Source: Flavisphingopyxis soli | GTDB taxonomy: Bacteria > Pseudomonadota > Alphaproteobacteria > Sphingomonadales > Sphingomonadaceae | Direction of reading: 5' to 3' | Assembly: GCF_007995095.1 (NCBI RefSeq) | Contig: NZ_VOPY01000001.1 | Location: forward strand, 831,001-895,000 | Length of the DNA stretch: 64,000 nt | In this document: positions 25,039-38,095 of the stretch, one piece after another | How the letters are laid out: every line of letters starts with the position of its first letter | How positions within the stretch are numbered: the first letter of the stretch is position 1 | Program-made: the position numbers and the translations under genes | Notes under the pieces: generated by a model | What the model was told of the DNA's origin: nothing | The model's database searches: none | Seen by the model: only the letters and a program-made list of their open reading frames with translations

Positions 25039-25145
25039 TTCGCTGATTGGCCATGCGCGGGGCGATGTGCCCCTTGCATGGCCGGATGCGCTCGCATAAA
25101 GGCGTGCGCCTGCCCGGCCGGAACCAGACCGGCGGGCGAAATGAT

Positions 25146-25221
25146 GGGGCCGTAGCTCAGCTGGGAGAGCGCTACACTGGCAGTGTAGAGGTCAGGGGTT
25201 CGATCCCCCTCGGCTCCACCA
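25146..25221 (+). tRNA. tRNA-Ala (GGC)
   Basis: A 76-nt tRNA with encoded CCA. Acceptor GGGGCCG pairs with CGGCTCC (one G-U). The anticodon loop is CTGGCAG with anticodon GGC, and the T-loop is GGTTCGATCCC. A phage integrase gene ends 28 bases downstream, so its 3' end is the probable attachment core. Confidence 0.97.
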
Positions 25222-25248: not shown

Positions 25249-26418
25249 TCAGTCGCGGCTCTTCGGGGTCGCGGTTTTGCTGCGCGGTAAAAACGCGGTA
25301 AACGCGCCGGGGGTGCGGTGTTCGATGTCGTCGATGATCGCCTCGGTCGCGGACAGCGCGAGGCCCAGATTTGCGGGGTCGGGCAGGGCGTAAAGGTCGG
25401 AAATGCTGGCCTTGTGATGGCCGAGCATGATCTCGCCCTGGCGCCAGCGTTCCTCGCCGATGCGTTTGCGCGCCAGGTGCGACACCGATCGTCGGAGCAG
25501 CTTCTCGCCGGTCTCGCCGCGGCGATAGATCCCGAGCTCTTCGATCATTGCCAGCCAGGCTTTGCGAATCGAGCCAACCTCCACATAGAAACCCTCGGTC
25601 GCGTCGAGATCGTCGCGCCATTGCCGCGCGACGGGAATCGTCGCGCGGTATTTCTTGGTCTGTCGCCGGCCGTGCGGGTTGAGCGCGAGGACGTTCGCCT
25701 CGGGAAACCACTGGCGGCGCTTTGGATCGGTCGAGATATCGTAGAGCGCGTCGGGCCGCGCCCAGGTGGCGACGCCGGCGCGCAAATAGCGGGCGAGATT
25801 CGCGCGCTCGGGCCGGGCGATGGCGTAGCGGAACAGCGAGGCGAGCTGCGCGATCGTCAGGCGCAACGTCGGCGACGCGTTGACCTCGGTCGACGGGATC
25901 GCCTTGAACCGCGCCGCCTCTCCCGGAAGAGCGTTGATCGCAGCGGCGAGCTGCGCAACGCTGGCCTCGATCGTCGACAGCGAGCGTTCGCGCTCAACGC
26001 CGGTGGGCGAGACGATCGGAACGCGCGCGTACCATTTGCGGAATCCCTCGACCCATTCCTCGTCGATCGAGCGGCAGAGAATCGCGGGATCGGTCCCGGC
26101 GACGTAGTCGATGACGGCGTCGAGGCGCGAGCAGATCGCGCCATAGGATGCCTTGTGCGTGCAGGTGACGCGATAGTCGGCGATCGCCTCGGTTACGAGC
26201 GTGCCGAGCCTTGGCGGGGCGGCGCCCCGGCTTTGGAGGTAGAGGCGGTCGAGCGCTTCGCTGGCTTCCCCCTCATCCGGCGAGCCCGCGCTAATGCTGC
26301 GCTCACGACTTCGGGCGGTATCGTACCAGGTGATGACGAGGTTGACGCGTCCGGGTCGCCGGTCGAGGCGATATCCTCCCCGGCTGTAGATTGGCGGCGC
26401 TCTCTTCGTTCCTGGCAT
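25249..26418 (-). CDS. int: Tyrosine recombinase, phage integrase
   Basis: A 389-residue site-specific recombinase. ATG 26,418 gives a basic N terminus (MPGTKRAPPIYSRGGYRLDRR). A core-binding helical domain spans ~100-200. The catalytic domain ends with LRRSVSHLARKRIG and then IMLGHHKASISDLYA, which supply the later Arg/His/Tyr positions: LGHHKAS corresponds to the HxxR-His box and Tyr in SDLYA to the nucleophile, slightly diverged from the textbook pattern. It lies beside tRNA-Ala and reads towards it. Its first 170 codons are overlapped by the small gene upstream. Confidence 0.85.
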   Translation of the reverse strand: MPGTKRAPPIYSRGGYRLDRRPGRVNLVITWYDTARSRERSISAGSPDEGEASEALDRLYLQSRGAAPPRLGTLVTEAIADYRVTCTHKASYGAICSRLDAVIDYVAGTDPAILCRSIDEEWVEGFRKWYARVPIVSPTGVERERSLSTIEASVAQLAAAINALPGEAARFKAIPSTEVNASPTLRLTIAQLASLFRYAIARPERANLARYLRAGVATWARPDALYDISTDPKRRQWFPEANVLALNPHGRRQTKKYRATIPVARQWRDDLDATEGFYVEVGSIRKAWLAMIEELGIYRRGETGEKLLRRSVSHLARKRIGEERWRQGEIMLGHHKASISDLYALPDPANLGLALSATEAIIDDIEHRTPGAFTAFLPRSKTATPKSRD

Positions 26419-26570
26419 TGCTTGCGGCGAATCTCGTCTGCTGCGTCGGCGAGCAAGCGTCCTACGCCGATTTCCATGAGCAGGTCCAGATCGGCGGCGG
26501 TGAGGTTCATCCCGCGGCCGGTGTCGACGCGCTTGAAGAATTTGCGCTCGAGTACGGGCAGGGCGGTCAT
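26193..26570 (-). CDS. Unknown prophage protein overlapping int
   Basis: A 125-residue frame starting MTALPVLERKFFKRVDTGRG. Its first ~65 residues are a plausible helical protein (LTAADLDLLMEIGVGRLLADAADEIRRKQCQERRERR). The rest is low-complexity Ser/Thr/Pro and overlaps the int coding sequence by 226 bases in another frame. The ATGA junction with the upstream gene supports translation of the start. Position beside int would suit an excisionase, but I see no HTH that proves it. Confidence 0.5.
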   Translation of the reverse strand: MTALPVLERKFFKRVDTGRGMNLTAADLDLLMEIGVGRLLADAADEIRRKQCQERRERRQSTAGEDIASTGDPDASTSSSPGTIPPEVVSAALARARRMRGKPAKRSTASTSKAGAPPRQGSARS

Positions 26571-26899
26571 GCGAACGCCGCCATCGACAGGTCGCGGGTG
26601 ACGCGCAAATGGGTCCACAGGCGGTGGAGGTTGCGCGAGCGGTCACGCAGCGCGGCGTCGGCGGGCGCGGCCTCGTGCCGGTCGAGCGCGGCGTCGTTGG
26701 CCAGCGATACCTCGGCGCGCATCGCCTCGATCGTGACCGCGGCGATGCCGCCCGGCTCGCCGACCTGCGCGACGTGGAAGGCGATCGCGCGCCAGATGGT
26801 GAGGCGTCGCGATATCTCAGCGTCGACCGGCTGCGGCAGGCGGGCGACGCTGTGCGCGCGGCGGCGATATTCGCCCGCGGCGATATCGGCGATGGTCAT
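26567..26899 (-). CDS. Unknown prophage protein
   Basis: A 110-residue helical protein (MTIADIAAGEYRRRA...). It is rich in Ala and Arg, with no recognisable motif. It is coupled by ATGA overlaps at both ends, as in the rest of the leftward operon. Confidence 0.65.
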   Translation of the reverse strand: MTIADIAAGEYRRRAHSVARLPQPVDAEISRRLTIWRAIAFHVAQVGEPGGIAAVTIEAMRAEVSLANDAALDRHEAAPADAALRDRSRNLHRLWTHLRVTRDLSMAAFA

Positions 26900-27981
26900 G
26901 CGCGCCTCGGCATGGCGTCGTGGGTGCGCCCGTCGAGCAGGCGGCCGGCGGCTTTCTTGCCGACGCGGCGCATGACGACGAAGCGGTCGCCATGAAAGCC
27001 GCGCCCGCCCTCGATATTCAGCCAGCGTGACTTGCCGCGGTCGACGTAATCGTTGGAATAATCGGCGCGCCAGTCGGGGTCGTCCCTCTCGCGATCGAGC
27101 GAAAGTTCCCAATCGCCCCATTGCTTGAAGAAAAACGGGACGTCGGCGGCGGCGCACTGGTCGCGCAGCGCGCGGGCCCAGTCGGGGTGCATGGGCCGCG
27201 CGCCGGGGCCGCTTTCGCCGCCTGCGACGATCCAGTCGATCGCTGGCTCGCCCACTATACCGGTCCAATCGCATGATGAGCAGCACTCTTGCTGCCCGGT
27301 CTCGGGATCTACCGGCGGCTGCGATCCCTCCATCTCCCAGTTTGGACACTCGACATCGCGGAACATGAGGCCCGACAGATCGACCGGCCCGAGCAGCGGT
27401 TCGCACGACAGCCAGCGGACGGCGGCGGGCGTGGCGAGAAGGTGCGGGATCCGCTCGTCGGCGCGCGCCTGGTCCTCGACGCTGGTGCCGAGCCAGACGT
27501 TGCTCGGCGGCAGCACTTCGCAATTGAACGGGTGATAGCCGAGTGTCCCGTCACCTAGAGGAGCTTGCACCGGTTTCCCGGCTTTGCGCCGTGACAAATA
27601 TTCGCACATCCGCTCGGGGCGCTTGGTCAGCAGCTGGAAGACGTGCTGGGGGCACAGCGCCATGACGGCGAACACGCGGTCGATCCATTCGTCGGGGACG
27701 TTTTCGTGGAACAGGTCGCCATGCGCGCAGACGAAGATCATGCGCGGGCGCTTCCAGCGCAGCGGGTCAGACAGCACCTTGTCGTTGAAGCGGACCTCTC
27801 CGGTCCAGACGGGACCAGCCTTCGTGTCCTGCGTCAGCCCGGCGCGCGAGGGGTGGTTCTTGAGCCGCGTTCCCGCCAGCTTCATCGCGTAGCAGTTGGT
27901 GCAGCCGGGCGATGTGACCGAGCATCCGTTGACGACGTTCCACGTTGCGTCGGTCCATTCGATCTTTGTGCCGTCGCTCAT
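26896..27981 (-). CDS. Phage Gp37/Gp68-family protein (DUF5131, three-Cys motif)
   Basis: A 361-residue member of the phage Gp37/Gp68 family. The N terminus carries the three-Cys motif: Cys20, Cys27 and Cys30 in CSVTSPGCTNCYAM, after the family opening KIEWTDATWN. Later conserved stretches are MIFVCAHGDLFHE, FQLLTKRPERM, NVWLGTSVEDQ, RWLSCEPLLGP and DWIVAGGESG. The Cys pattern and strand layout recall radical-SAM-like metal-binding TIM barrels; enzymatic function is unproven. Homologues often occur with a TcmP partner, but none is next to it here. It includes a second Cys cluster (QQECCSSCDW). Confidence 0.88.
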   Translation of the reverse strand: MSDGTKIEWTDATWNVVNGCSVTSPGCTNCYAMKLAGTRLKNHPSRAGLTQDTKAGPVWTGEVRFNDKVLSDPLRWKRPRMIFVCAHGDLFHENVPDEWIDRVFAVMALCPQHVFQLLTKRPERMCEYLSRRKAGKPVQAPLGDGTLGYHPFNCEVLPPSNVWLGTSVEDQARADERIPHLLATPAAVRWLSCEPLLGPVDLSGLMFRDVECPNWEMEGSQPPVDPETGQQECCSSCDWTGIVGEPAIDWIVAGGESGPGARPMHPDWARALRDQCAAADVPFFFKQWGDWELSLDRERDDPDWRADYSNDYVDRGKSRWLNIEGGRGFHGDRFVVMRRVGKKAAGRLLDGRTHDAMPRRA

Positions 27982-29617: not shown

Positions 29618-29829
29618 GATGCGAGCCAGTCGATGAGGGCGAGCGTGGAGCCGCAGACCATGACGATCGCGGCGACGATGACGGAGAATGCCTGCAGGTC
29701 GAGCAGAGCTTCGTTGATCGCGGTGTGGCGATAGGTGCGCGCGCGTTCGGTGGCGACGGCGCGGCGCGAGCGGGCGAGGGCGATGCTGCGTTCGCCGGCG
29801 ATGAAGGCGGCGGGGGGCGGGCGCATCAT
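29614..29829 (-). CDS. Small single-helix membrane protein
   Basis: A 71-residue protein with a basic N-terminal half and a hydrophobic segment near residues 46-68 (FSVIVAAIVMVCGSTLALIDWL). ATGA overlap with the upstream gene. Function is not recognised; with its neighbour it forms a pair of tiny membrane genes in the leftward operon. Confidence 0.6.
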   Translation of the reverse strand: MMRPPPAAFIAGERSIALARSRRAVATERARTYRHTAINEALLDLQAFSVIVAAIVMVCGSTLALIDWLAS

Positions 29830-30086
29830 GCCGCGCTCGCGGTCGGGCAGCGACGGTCGATGGCGCGATCACGCGTGGCGGGGAGCAGGTCGGCGAGTGC
29901 GACGGTGCGGTTGACGCTGGCAGCGTCGGCGCGGCGTGCGCCGGGGAGCGGATCGCCGACGAGGACGGTCGCGCCGTCCTGCGCGCGGATGATGCGGATG
30001 CCGGGGCCGGTGTCGAAGGTGCCGTCGGCGCCGCGCTCTATCGCGTAGCTGCCGGGATGGGGGAAACTGGCATCGGTCTTGAGCAT
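29826..30086 (-). CDS. First gene of the leftward operon, unknown function
   Basis: An 86-residue protein (MLKTDASFPHPGSYAIERGADG...) probably expressed early. It starts 32 bases from the predicted -10 element of the leftward promoter. No family is recognised. Confidence 0.65.
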   Translation of the reverse strand: MLKTDASFPHPGSYAIERGADGTFDTGPGIRIIRAQDGATVLVGDPLPGARRADAASVNRTVALADLLPATRDRAIDRRCPTASAA

Positions 30087-30117: not shown

Positions 30118-30162
30118 GATTAGGGGTATCTATCCCCCTATGTCAAGGGGGACATTTACCCA
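30118..30162 (-). promoter_or_regulatory. Leftward early promoter with two repressor operators (OL-like)
   Basis: On the minus strand TTGACA (complement of 30,141-30,146) is followed after 17 bases by CTAATC (30,118-30,123). Two GGGG-N7-CCCC sites overlap it: site A 30,123-30,137 (exact) and site B 30,148-30,162 (last base A). Their centres are 25 bp apart. The same motif occurs three times next to the repressor gene, so this is read as the repressor-controlled promoter of the integrase operon. Confidence 0.7.
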
Positions 30163-30259
30163 GTGTCAATGGTCGGTGCAGCGACCGGGCAGCGCCTTTG
30201 CGATTGACAAACACGGTCGCTCGGGCTGTCTTCGGAAGGAACAACTGGAGGGGAACACA

Positions 30260-30739
30260 ATGAAAAACGCAATTTGGACGGCTTTCGCCGCAGTTATGCT
30301 TGCGGGGTGCGCGAATAGCGCTCTGATGGTCGAGGAACCGAACACCACCAGCTATCGAACCCAGTCGGCGACGGTCGAGTATGACAAGTCGACGGTGGCC
30401 GTCGACGCGGAAAACATCACGTACACGCAGCGTAAGATGGAAGAGGCGTTCTTCGGGGGCGACACGCCCCTGTTCGCGCGCGGCGACGGGATGACGGTTC
30501 GCTATCGCTATATCGGATTCGAGGAAGGCAGCCAGGTCGGGCGGTACCTTACGGCGGGGATCGCCGGCGGGTCGAAGATCGTGATGGAAGTGGACTTCGT
30601 CGGGCCTGACGGTCAGCTGCTGGCGCAAGTCCGGTCGGAAGGATCGGTGAGCGGCGGTTTCTTCGGCGGATCGAACAAGACGGGCATCGACAAGGCGGTC
30701 AAAAAGGCAGCGGACTATGCGTCTTCGCAGTTCAAATAG
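30260..30739 (+). CDS. DUF4410-like lipoprotein (moron)
   Basis: A 159-residue lipoprotein with lipobox LAGC, preceded by a good GGAGGGG ribosome binding site. The body contains the DUF4410-type end GFFGGSNKTGIDKAVKKAADY. It sits between the leftward promoter and the repressor, reading rightwards, which is typical of a gene expressed from the prophage to alter the host envelope. A TTGACA at 30,204 may belong to its own promoter, but the -10 is poor. Confidence 0.8.
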   Translation: MKNAIWTAFAAVMLAGCANSALMVEEPNTTSYRTQSATVEYDKSTVAVDAENITYTQRKMEEAFFGGDTPLFARGDGMTVRYRYIGFEEGSQVGRYLTAGIAGGSKIVMEVDFVGPDGQLLAQVRSEGSVSGGFFGGSNKTGIDKAVKKAADYASSQFK

Positions 30740-31151
30740 GGGGATGGCCTGCATTGCCGCTCTTGCCTTGAGTCTGGCGGCATGCGGGGTGCCCGAGGTG
30801 CCCGAAAGCAGCGATCAACAATCCGGGCCCGCGGCGGCGGAGCCTGCGTCGCTGTTCGCGAAGGCCAATGCGCGAGCGAGCGCGGATCCGCAACAGACCC
30901 TCATGCGCTATTGCATGGACAGGATCAGTTACTGGCGCGATCGCGGGATTGTCGAGCATGGCGGCGCGCGACCAGGCGTATCGCGATCGAACTGGCGCGG
31001 TCTGGACGACGAGGGAAGGCGCGACATCCTCGAGACGGCGGCGTGTATTCAGGCGAGCGGCCTGCCGGGCCCGGCACCGGGCGTGGTGGTTGTCGCCGGA
31101 TTTCCCGACGTGGTCCAGGAAGAGGCCGTCATCGAGGTCGCTTACGAATAA
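30717..31151 (+). CDS. Second moron lipoprotein, unknown family
   Basis: A 144-residue protein with a lipoprotein signal ending LAAC. ATG 30,717 overlaps the 3' end of the previous gene and gives a basic n-region (MRLRSSNRG); ATG 30,744 is possible but lacks spacing for a ribosome site. The mature part has two or three Cys (RYCMDR, AACIQ) and no known motif. It converges on the repressor gene 10 bp away. Confidence 0.7.
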   Translation: MRLRSSNRGMACIAALALSLAACGVPEVPESSDQQSGPAAAEPASLFAKANARASADPQQTLMRYCMDRISYWRDRGIVEHGGARPGVSRSNWRGLDDEGRRDILETAACIQASGLPGPAPGVVVVAGFPDVVQEEAVIEVAYE

Positions 31152-31160
31152 TCGGACGGA

Positions 31161-31895
31161 TCACCCGCCGAACAGGTCCACCGCGGGCATGATGCGATGC
31201 ATCCGCGCGATGCGAGTGCGGGCAACGCGAAAGATGCGGGCGGGATTGAACTGCTCGAGCTCGACGAAATTGCCGGTGATGCGGACCAGTCGCTTGACGA
31301 GGACGGTGACGACATCGTCGTCGGTCCCGTTGTTCAGCTGGACGACGACATAGTCGGCAGGTCGGACGGGCCGGTGCGGATCGACGATGCCCATGTCGCC
31401 ACGTTCAAAGCGGGGCTCCATCGAATCTCCCATGAAGTAGATTGCATAAGCCTCTCGGACGCCCTGAAGCGCAGGCGGGCGTGAGACCATGCGGATAACG
31501 TGGGTTGGTTCGAAGAGAGTCGTCTCGATCTCTACATCGCCGTTCGAATTGCTGGGGAAGGTCGCGCCGCCACAATGGCCGGTGCCGAGGATCGGTAGAT
31601 CCTGCCCGGGCCAGTCGCTGCCGAAATGGCGGTGCACGTCGCGTAGATCGACCTCCGATCGAACCATCTCGCGAACTTCTGTCTTTCCGAGAAGCCAGTC
31701 GGCCGAAACGTTCAGGTGCTTCGCGATCGCCTCCATGCGCTCGATGCGAGGCATGCCTTTACGCTTCACAAGGTTTGCGATCGCCTTGCTGTCGCTGCCA
31801 TCGGTAATCTGCATCGACAGCCAATAGGCGGTCTTACCCATTTCATCGAGACGCTCACCGATGCGTTTGGCCAGTATTTCCGCGCGTTTGGACAT
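31161..31895 (-). CDS. cI: CI-type prophage repressor, S24 peptidase family
   Basis: A 244-residue lysogeny repressor. Residues ~5-75 form an HTH DNA-binding domain. The C-terminal S24 domain has the nucleophile Ser158 (GDSME) and general base Lys201 (VLVKRL). The cleavage region GTGHCGGA puts a Cys108-Gly109 bond at the scissile position, as in some phage repressors, so RecA-stimulated self-cleavage on DNA damage is expected. Operator C directly abuts its start codon and a GATAAT -10 element places the start point at the ATG. Confidence 0.9.
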   Translation of the reverse strand: MSKRAEILAKRIGERLDEMGKTAYWLSMQITDGSDSKAIANLVKRKGMPRIERMEAIAKHLNVSADWLLGKTEVREMVRSEVDLRDVHRHFGSDWPGQDLPILGTGHCGGATFPSNSNGDVEIETTLFEPTHVIRMVSRPPALQGVREAYAIYFMGDSMEPRFERGDMGIVDPHRPVRPADYVVVQLNNGTDDDVVTVLVKRLVRITGNFVELEQFNPARIFRVARTRIARMHRIMPAVDLFGG

Positions 31896-31974
31896 GGGGG
31901 CATTATCCCCATTGCCGATGATTTCACCAGAGGGTAGCAATCCCCTTGACGACGGGGGACAAAGACCCCTAAAA
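31896..31974. promoter_or_regulatory. Repressor operators and divergent promoters (OR-like)
   Basis: Three sites of the form GGGG-N7-CCCC: C 31,896-31,910 (exact), D 31,931-31,945 (AGGG), E 31,955-31,969 (exact). D and E are 24 bp apart centre to centre. Rightward promoter: TTGACG 31,946-31,951, 17-base spacer, CTAAAA 31,969-31,974. Leftward repressor promoter: GATAAT (complement of 31,902-31,907) with a weak -35, so it may need activation. The geometry parallels lambda OR with PR and PRM. Confidence 0.75.
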
Positions 31975-32002: not shown

Positions 32003-32323
32003 TTGGACCTGAAATCTCGATTGTTGCGCTGCGCCGACCTTTGGGCGCAGGAAACGGGGGATCCCGTGAGCCGAGCGGCGAAGATTGTCGCCAACCATGG
32101 AGGCTTTTTCGACCGCCTCGCCGGAGAGGGCGCATCTTGCACGACCAAGATGCTCGAAAAGTTCGCGCGCTTCCTCGTCGATCCGGCGAACTGGCCGGGT
32201 CCGGTGCCGCAGGAGGTGTGCGATTTCGCCCATGCTGTCGGGGTTAGCGCGCCGACAGCAACCGCGTCATCGGGAAAGCGCGAGGCGATTTCCCCGGCCG
32301 ATCATGCGCAGGTGACGGCATGA
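32003..32323 (+). CDS. Early protein at the Cro position
   Basis: A 106-residue protein, first gene of the rightward early transcript. TTG 32,003 has an AGGGAG site eight bases upstream; GTG 31,994 is the alternative. The sequence is helical (SRAAKIVANHGGFFDRLAGEG, MLEKFARFLVDPANW) and might hold a diverged HTH, but I cannot confirm Cro function. Confidence 0.7.
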   Translation: MDLKSRLLRCADLWAQETGDPVSRAAKIVANHGGFFDRLAGEGASCTTKMLEKFARFLVDPANWPGPVPQEVCDFAHAVGVSAPTATASSGKREAISPADHAQVTA

Positions 32324-32802
32324 GCGTGTCGCGGACGCTGTTCCACCGGCTGTGCGCGGCAACGCGCGAGATGCAGCGCGGGGTCGGCGGGATCGAGGCG
32401 GCAGCGGAGATCACGGGAAAGTCGAAATCGCAGCATGGCCGGTTCCAGTCGCCGCACGATTCCGACCTGCCGACGGTCGGCGATATCGCGATGATCGAGG
32501 ATATTTCGCGCGGCGATCCCGCGCATCCTGCGGTGACGCGGCTGCTGTGCCAGCTGGCGGGCGGGGTGTTCGTGCCGCTGCCGGCGCATGATGGCGACCT
32601 TCCAGGGCTGGCCGATTCGGTCGTCAGCCTGTCGTGCGAGCTGGGCGATGTCGCCAACGCGATCCGCGCGGGGCTGGCCGACGACCAGGTGTTGAGCGCG
32701 GTCGAGGCGGGCAAGGTGCGGCGCGAGCTCGACGACCTGATGCGGTGCTGTGCGGCGCTGGGGCAATTGCTCGACGCGCGGATCGCCGAGGGCGGACGAT
32801 GA
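32320..32802 (+). CDS. CII-like phage regulatory protein
   Basis: A 160-residue protein resembling the Phage_CII/CP76 family. The N-terminal part LFHRLCAATREMQRGVGGIEAAAEITGKSKSQHGRFQSP fits an HTH followed by the DLPTVGDIAMIEDISRG stretch. A helical C-terminal part could oligomerise. The start overlaps the upstream stop (ATGA). In P2-like phages such proteins set the lysogeny decision. Confidence 0.65.
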   Translation: MSVSRTLFHRLCAATREMQRGVGGIEAAAEITGKSKSQHGRFQSPHDSDLPTVGDIAMIEDISRGDPAHPAVTRLLCQLAGGVFVPLPAHDGDLPGLADSVVSLSCELGDVANAIRAGLADDQVLSAVEAGKVRRELDDLMRCCAALGQLLDARIAEGGR

Positions 32803-37201: not shown

Positions 37202-37798
37202 TCAATCCTCCTTGCCACGCGGCGACTTCTTGATGCGCGCGGCAGCGCTGGGGTCGATGAATTCACCGGTACGAGGGTGCCTTGCAGCGCGACTTTTGGC
37301 GTTGCCGGCGCGCAGGAAGCGGCCTTCGACGGCGTTCGCCTGGTCGAAGGCCCGCGCGATCTTGCGCTTGGTAATCTCGGCAGGATCGTCGGTCGGAGCA
37401 GGTTCGAGCGTCCAGCGCGGTGCATCGAGCGCCTTGGCGATCGCATCGAGCGTCTCGGCGCGGCCGCGACCGGGATCGAGCGCCTCGATCCGCGCAATGC
37501 CCGCCTGAGTGAGATCGGTCGCTCCGGCGAGATCGGCCTGGGTCATTTTGCGGTAGCGACGCCATGCAGCGATGGGGTGCCTGCCGCCTCGAATAGCGGC
37601 GTCGACTTCGGCGGGGATACCGCCGTCGGCGTCTATCGATGCGCGGCCGGCGTATGCGGCAGCGAGATCAGCGGCGTCTTCGGCGGCATCGAGCAGTGCC
37701 TGATATTCGGCGAGCGGGATGGTCACGTTGCCGTTGGCGTCGGGGGCGACCTTGCGGTCGAGCAGGGCGGCGATGTCGCCTTTGGTATCAATGGTCAT
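37202..37798 (-). CDS. XRE-family antitoxin
   Basis: A 198-residue protein. Residues ~75-115 are an XRE helix-turn-helix (WRRYRKMTQADLAGATDLTQAGIARIEALD). The N-terminal part (VTIPLAEYQALLDAAEDAADL) resembles antitoxin segments that bind a RelE-type toxin. The C-terminal end contains a short stretch (GNAKSRAARHPRTGEF) like tails of other XRE antitoxins. It lies 48 bases downstream of the toxin, the HigBA-type order. Confidence 0.8.
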   Translation of the reverse strand: MTIDTKGDIAALLDRKVAPDANGNVTIPLAEYQALLDAAEDAADLAAAYAGRASIDADGGIPAEVDAAIRGGRHPIAAWRRYRKMTQADLAGATDLTQAGIARIEALDPGRGRAETLDAIAKALDAPRWTLEPAPTDDPAEITKRKIARAFDQANAVEGRFLRAGNAKSRAARHPRTGEFIDPSAAARIKKSPRGKED

Positions 37799-37846
37799 AG
37801 TCAGTCTCCGGTCGTGGTGGGAAGTGTAGGACGGTCGTATCGTGGG

Positions 37847-38095
37847 TCAGTAAACCGACCCCCTTGCCCCGATGGCGGTAATGGAGAGCGTCATCCCGTC
37901 GTCGTCATAAATGACCCGCCAGTCGCCGACGCGAAGCCGGAAGGCGGTGGTCCCTTGAAGCCGCGTCACGTTGTTCGCGAGGCTGCCATCATCGAGAGCC
38001 AGCTGCTTAATCTTATCGTCTATCTTCTCCGCTTCATTGGCGGGGATTTTGGCGAGCGCCTTGCTGGCGGCTTTCGAGAGAATGACTGTTTTCAT
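37847..38095 (-). CDS. RelE/ParE-family toxin
   Basis: An 82-residue protein of RelE size. The end GDWRVIYDDDGMTLSITAIGARGSVY has the Arg and Tyr positions used by mRNA interferases, and LQGTTAFRLRVGDWRVIY is the family core. It likely cleaves mRNA at the ribosome and is neutralised by the adjacent XRE protein. Expression comes from a consensus promoter just upstream. Confidence 0.85.
   Translation of the reverse strand: MKTVILSKAASKALAKIPANEAEKIDDKIKQLALDDGSLANNVTRLQGTTAFRLRVGDWRVIYDDDGMTLSITAIGARGSVY

Follow-up and report, generated by a model that had tools for sequence, protein, structure and literature searches.

Five putative CI operator sites of a lambda-like prophage switch in Flavisphingopyxis soli and their layout in related prophages

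The prophage and its repressor region

We analysed a stretch of 64,000 nucleotides of Flavisphingopyxis soli (GCF_007995095.1, contig NZ_VOPY01000001.1, positions 831,001 to 895,000), hereafter the window; positions are those of the window unless stated otherwise. The assembly, to which the genome-wide counts refer, comprises 2.59 Mb in 4 contigs. A 45-bp repeat of the 3' end of tRNA-Ala lies at 25177-25221, with its second copy past the window edge, at positions 896947-896991 of the same contig. The prophage enclosed by the two copies measures about 40.8 kb. A CI protein 100% identical to that of the window and all five operator sites described below are also present on an IMG/VR contig (39,940 bp).

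The gene at 31161-31895 (minus strand) encodes a CI repressor of 244 aa, for which family matches, a profile and a structural model indicate an HTH and an S24 peptidase domain. By profile, the HTH matches SinR, 434 and P22 c2. The first Foldseek match of the model is the lambda repressor (3bdn), and its C-terminal domain aligns with 1f39 with a TM of 0.65 of the target. The Ser158 and Lys201 dyad is present, with a Cys-Gly in the cleavage region, i.e. this is an HTH + S24 repressor with a Ser-Lys dyad as found in a lambda-type switch. In an alignment of CI proteins from 23 loci (near-duplicates counted), Ser158 was conserved in all 23, and residue 201 was Lys in 7 out of 22 (window included) and Gly in 15 out of 22, the L100 sequence ending short. 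Many relatives therefore look unable to self-cleave, whereas the window CI looks able to do so. A search with this single protein found no close relatives in genome contigs and only the same prophage in viral contigs, and a DNA search of phages was empty. CI matches were detected in 32 of 197 related genomes (own included), mostly in the C-terminal domain only.

Divergently from cI, the position of cro is occupied by a gene at 32003-32323 (plus strand; start TTG 32003 or GTG 31994) that belongs to phrog_7669, a family of 'unknown function'. It is followed by a CII-like regulator (32320-32802, plus strand; phrog_101 match). The phrog_7669 protein is modelled (pLDDT 83.5) with five helices, arranged in an HTH-like order. 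No Pfam match and no PDB sequence match were obtained at E 1, its profile resembled the CI alignment weakly (hhalign E 0.008, probability 5%), and the Foldseek matches shown were mostly HTH proteins, none of them significant (best E 0.48). This protein had no match in the 193 other related genomes (194 searched, own included). We propose that the divergent first gene probably encodes a Cro-like antagonist.

On the other side of cI, two short genes convergent with it (ORFs, 30260-31151, plus strand) separate it from the left operator cluster (OL), and the first ORF on the PL side (29826-30086), where a lambda-type switch would have an N-type antiterminator, gave no match in family searches. Further away, a large ORF (25249-26646, minus strand) lies beside attL, in the position of an integrase; no Pfam, PHROG or NCBIfam family was assigned to it at the limits used. 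Next to it, a DUF5131 protein (26896-27981, minus strand) matches the PADLOC defence candidates PDC-M41B and PDC-M30B. At 37202-38095 (minus strand), an HTH protein adjoins a ParE-type toxin, likely forming a toxin-antitoxin pair within the prophage.

Operator sites and promoters

The original prediction described five GGGG-N7-CCCC sites in two clusters flanking cI. We recovered the exact sites at 30123, 31896 and 31955, those with one mismatch at 30148 and 31931, and, in this register, the spacings of 25 (A-B) and 24 (D-E). The sites are thus present as described, but a better unit, learned from relatives, is 16 bp long, with two half-sites of four bases around eight (4-N8-4). In this register, A, D and E are perfect, B pairs at 3 out of 4 arm positions and C is better read as N7. 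The left cluster comprises operator A (30123-30138; GGGGTATCTATCCCCC, TAGGGG/CCCCTA), within the PL spacer, and operator B (30147-30162; GGGGGACATTTACCCA), just upstream of the PL -35. The right cluster comprises operator C (O3; 31896-31910; GGGGGCATTATCCCC), which abuts the cI start codon, operator D (O2; 31931-31946; AGGGTAGCAATCCCCT), centred about 43 bp from the cI start, and operator E (O1; 31954-31969; GGGGGACAAAGACCCC), within the PR spacer.

The two early promoter sequences proposed with these sites were also recovered. The predicted PL (30118-30146, minus strand) has a -35 TTGACA (30146-30141), a 17-bp spacer and a -10 CTAATC (30123-30118); the predicted PR (31946-31974, plus strand) has a -35 TTGACG (31946-31951), a 17-bp spacer and a -10 CTAAAA (31969-31974). 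Their cores are near copies of each other, forming a 31-nt inverted repeat (81%) that is the longest in the 2.5-kb region, and in each, one operator occupies the spacer (A, E) and another directly precedes the -35 (B, D). As judged from sequence, the repressor gene is flanked by operator clusters on both early promoters, as in a lambda-type switch. PL would drive the leftward genes towards attL. The predicted -10 of PRM (GATAAT, 31907-31902, minus strand) lies inside operator C and ends 6 nt before the cI ATG (31895), so the cI mRNA is predicted to be leaderless. None of PL, PR and PRM was picked up by a generic scan for the sigma-70 consensus.

Then, we investigated how far such sites are expected by chance. 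The bare motif is frequent elsewhere, an outcome that the original prediction had named as counting against it: with at most one mismatch, GGGG-N7-CCCC occurs 48 times in the 64-kb window, against 47.9 in shuffles. The exact motif occurs six times, those outside the network being at 25059, 25195 (tRNA) and 30456 (small gene). The clustered, promoter-embedded form is not frequent. The best inverted-repeat motif of the two intergenic stretches (271 bp) is GGGA-N5-TCCC, the inner core of the operator sites, with 5 sites when one mismatch is allowed. None of 300 shuffles gave five clustered sites and 7 gave four. Two further patterns were written after the sites had been seen: DGGG-N6-TCCCC, with 29 occurrences in the 2.59-Mb genome against 20 for the reversed control, 5 of the 29 falling within 1.85 kb here, and the composite TTGAC-N3-GGGGG-N7-CCCCTAA, which fits PL (0 mismatches) and PR and has no other match in the window within 3 mismatches (0.07 expected). 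In a leave-one-out PWM, A ranked 2, B 2, C 5 and E 6 among 63,985 positions, outscored by sister sites only, plus one tRNA site for E; D was the weakest (rank 57). A sixth perfect GGGG-N8-CCCC, GGGGGCGACACGCCCC, lies at 30455-30470 inside the first gene of the cI-OL gap. We take it as a probable chance occurrence in a coding gene, its GC-rich centre being unlike those of the operators.

Layout in related prophages

A search with a profile of three CI proteins (window, Aurantimonas phage AmM-1 and Rhizobium phage RR1-A) matched 31 viral loci, this prophage among them. Eight of them (L089, L090, L093, L096-L099, L101) were dropped because their match was without all or most of the HTH. The other 23 loci gave 16 CI representatives with <70% identity, this prophage included, the start codons being picked by hand. 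The comparison with related prophages, proposed as a check on the sites, revealed the same operator layout with other letters among these 16 representatives (15 relatives). The shared plan is that of three 16-bp operators (4-N8-4, with a degenerate middle) between cI and the divergent gene. All 16 representatives place the -35 of PR 54-57 bp away from the cI start. Half-site letters vary (GGGG, GCGG, GCGT, GCGC, GCGA) and the geometry is nearly constant.

Perfect 4-N8-4 sites were found at O1 in 11, at O3 in 10 and at O2 in 3 of the 16 representatives, when shuffles gave about 1 each (maxima 5, 4 and 4). The summed symmetry, with the best offset per site, was 77 for O1, 71 for O3 and 58 for O2. 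In 1000 control draws the mean was 49.1 and the highest value 62, so that O2 is within the control range. As plain counts, a -10-like hexamer (at least 4/6 matches) ends 6-7 nt before cI in 14 out of 16, and in 13 out of 16 the distance from the beginning of the PR -35 to an ATG is 35-37 nt, which fits a leaderless divergent transcript. Measured from the same point, the divergent gene begins at 57 nt in the window and L072 and at 42 in L073. It belongs to phrog_7669 in all 12 aligned members; 4 of the 16 representatives are outside the alignment.

Using a strict rule based on the half-site of each prophage itself, set after an exploratory look, we found an OL pair beyond cI in 8 of the 16 representatives, this prophage included, and none in the other 8 (L083 and L100 were searched in part). 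All 8 pairs have TTGAC between the sites, and tests with foreign half-sites gave 0 out of 98. The two sites are 29-30 bp apart in seven of the pairs and 24 in the window. In L072, the closest relative (44% identity), G-rich sites occupy O2, O3 and OL, and the O1 site is imperfect. L072 fails the strict rule, and site-TTGACG-site is visible there by eye.

A first out-of-sample test failed. From 385 genomes, 145 matched; we took the best 30 loci, dropped our own, excluded 3 whose match was without the HTH and tested 26. Positions are unsure for L112 and L134 (cut by a contig edge) and L106 (start misplaced). GTCAA was found in 7 out of 26 (shuffle mean 1.55), O1 in 2 (L113 and L118; shuffle mean 0.065), O3 in none and both O1 and O3 in none (shuffle mean 0.01). 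Other anchor positions gave O1 in 71 and both in 6 out of 1968. Inspected by eye after the fact, most of these loci proved to have another HTH type, the layout being seen in L113 and L117 and partially in L106. The failure of this broader test indicates that the layout belongs to a prophage subfamily and not to S24 repressors at large. By eye, L108-L110 are CI-like with a similar HTH, and have no divergent TTGAC promoter and no layout; they are possibly host-adopted relatives.

A second held-out set was found through the divergent gene, with a plan drawn up for alignment A2 and carried out with alignment A4. From 48 loci, 13 on training contigs and 2 without room were removed, and the remaining 33 gave 18 unique upstreams. 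The anchor had been widened to TTGA[CT] beforehand, and the script allowed it to lie 20-75 nt away. The anchor was found in 18 out of 18 (shuffle mean 3.9), O1 in 11 (0.11), O3 in 12 (0.19) and both operators in 7 (0.003). Seven of these upstreams share at least 0.70 identity with one from the training set; in the remaining 11 (<0.70 identity), O1 was found in 6, O3 in 7 and both in 4. All 18 loci have a divergent ORF of at least 150 aa that begins 64-109 nt away. Taken together, the two held-out outcomes indicate that the layout goes with the prophage subfamily carrying the phrog_7669 gene.

We also compared half-site letters with the repressor sequences, testing six protein regions. Half-site differences correlated with the recognition region (Mantel r 0.34, p 0.002), with helix 2 (r 0.32, p 0.005) and with the C-terminal domain (r 0.24, p 0.028); the whole HTH gave p 0.057, and neither the N-terminus nor the stretch after the helix showed a correlation. 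As the C-terminal domain correlates too and the whole HTH misses 0.05, shared descent may be the cause, and we read this co-variation as a pattern, not as proof. The G-rich group (window, L072, L073) has a basic KRK/RRK run after the recognition helix, and the window CI is without the Arg present there in 13 out of 16.

The proposed switch, rival explanations and known systems

The position of the sites on PL, PR and PRM, the 16 representatives, the held-out set and the annotation of phage 16-3 (see below) all argue strongly for an operator function towards the adjacent CI, as originally predicted. We are highly confident that A-E serve the prophage CI repressor as its operators in a lambda-like switch; the sites are very probably genuine operators, with predicted binding. 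CI dimers bound to OR (E and D) and OL (A and B) would lie across the spacers of PR and PL and the flanks of their -35 elements, where these sites are, and so switch both early operons off. CI on D would probably activate PRM, whereas CI on C, i.e. on the PRM -10 and the cI start codon, would shut PRM off at high CI concentration. RecA-stimulated self-cleavage of CI (Ser158/Lys201, Cys-Gly) would then release both promoters. The same geometry, with other half-site letters, recurs in a subfamily of prophages.

Another protein could be the main ligand of these operators, namely the divergent phrog_7669 product, in which case CI would be a second ligand or would be missing from some of the sites. 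Its gene adjoins the sites in every aligned member, the second held-out set was found through this type of gene and its model has an HTH-like helix order. The absence of Pfam and PDB matches and the weak hhalign and Foldseek scores speak against it, as does the presence of C and O3 on the cI promoter, where CI autoregulation needs them. We regard shared operators of this kind as unlikely. A chance origin, from the G-runs and C-runs of a GC-rich genome beside promoters, is favoured by the background level of the bare motif. The composite pattern moreover occurs in 4 viral contigs (one being this prophage) and 17 genome contigs, and at the 20 loci other than our own no CI homologue was found in the DNA examined (best phmmer E about 0.5), so that we rejected these loci as operators. 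Among them, L043 and L045 have a promising context in common; L045 turned out to be an unrelated promoter belonging to another gene, and a stop codon accounts for part of its resemblance. Chance would not readily give the clustering absent from 300 shuffles, the 5 of 29 genome-wide tight matches gathered here or relatives that keep the geometry with other letters, and is very improbable.

The sites might also be those of a host regulator (LexA or another) exploited by the prophage. S24 repressors and LexA are related folds and, according to the available part of PMC9437464, some phages employ host LexA. However, half-sites differ between prophages, each set lying next to its own CI, and a fixed host regulator would not give rise to such variation; this explanation is therefore disfavoured and deserves very little credence. 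We thus retain the CI operators and compare them with known switches.

Lambda has two operator regions, three right-hand sites, a spacing of 23-25 bp and a leaderless cI. The window shares the first three of these features and the CI fold, and is predicted to share the leaderless cI. For the cooperative binding, OL-OR looping and PRM activation from OR2 of lambda-type switches, the agreement is limited to the positions of the sites. It differs from lambda in its 16-bp 4-N8-4 sites with other letters, in the only two left-hand sites found, in the position of C on the PRM -10, 35 bp from D, and in the cro-position protein, which is of another family.

AmM-1 and RR1-A are distant full-length CI relatives (28% identity). 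They share the layout of the window, their O3, with TATAAT inside, preceding the cI start and their O1 lying inside the PR spacer, but their half-sites are GCGG and GCGT and a Gly replaces the S24 Lys201. The stretches of their records that we examined carry no operator features. The record of Rhizobium phage 16-3 (NC_011103), on whose annotation our statements on its operators rest, has OL1, OL2, OR1 and OR2. Counted from the c start, OR2 (-73..-60) and OR1 (-47..-34) lie on either side of the Pr -35 (-54..-49), and the Pc -10 spans -12..-7. Placed against Pc, Pr and the start codon, these operators agree in position with those of the window within about 3 bp, the Pc -10 likewise ends 6 nt before the start and the OL pair is just beyond c. 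The C repressor is homologous over HTH + S24 by the A3 profile, whose first row is the window CI (model 4-222, 157 bits); the window CI alone matched it only over residues 133-238 (37%). Phage 16-3 differs in having four operators (ACAA-N4/6-TTGT), with half-sites ACAA..TTGT and lengths of 14 and 12 bp, instead of five G-rich 4-N8-4 sites; no operator is annotated on the Pc -10 (no O3); its OL sites start 17 bp apart; and its divergent ORF p069 is unmatched by the phrog_7669-type alignment. By these sequence comparisons, the window CI groups with the AmM-1/RR1-A type repressors, 16-3 being a more distant homologue.

According to the parts of two published reports available to us, in silico work did not find operators for Brucella phage BiPBO1 (PMC4729917) or for phiLM21-like Sinorhizobium prophages, which had been searched against lambda and 16-3 operators (PMC12429752). 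The own repressor of phiLM21 looks, by eye, unlike the window CI family, with no 4-N8-4 site upstream. A description of the present layout was not found in the available parts of the literature searched (including PMC4729917, PMC12429752, PMC3694467, PMC9437464, PMC13345283 and PMC10460002). The predicted switch is of a known lysogeny type and is unlike 16-3 in operator letters, length and number. For a subfamily of such alphaproteobacterial prophages, early promoters and operators are predicted by a simple rule: locate a TTGAC 54-57 bp away from the cI start, and look for 4-N8-4 sites on either side of it and at the start codon. From the comparison set, a protein of unknown function also emerges as a candidate Cro.

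A wider reading, to which we give about even chances, is that of a modular switch, in which a fixed geometry (three right operators, often two left, PR -35 at 54-57 bp from the cI start, and starts of cI and of the divergent gene usually placed for leaderless mRNAs) would accommodate swappable half-sites of 16-bp operators, read by a co-varying helix, with phrog_7669 as a new Cro family. If this is true, a change of helix and half-site letters would convert one immunity group into another with the promoters left in place, and the window would represent one specificity class. In the comparison set, many natural recognition helices are paired with many half-sites in a near-fixed geometry, which makes it a direct data set on the HTH recognition code.

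Finally, the gap between cI and OL differs between prophages. Several other relatives have OL close behind cI, the first or only site being at about +750 to +850, and extra ORFs are found in this gap in the window (the two genes at 30260-31151, plus strand) and in L072 (3245-3973, minus strand). These ORFs are mutually unrelated and gave no family match at the cut-off; the first gap gene of the window (30260-30739) weakly resembles lipoprotein/DUF4410, below this cut-off. A TTGACA at 30205 could serve the gap genes of the window independently of CI. The gap is possibly a cargo slot, of which lambda rexAB is an example.
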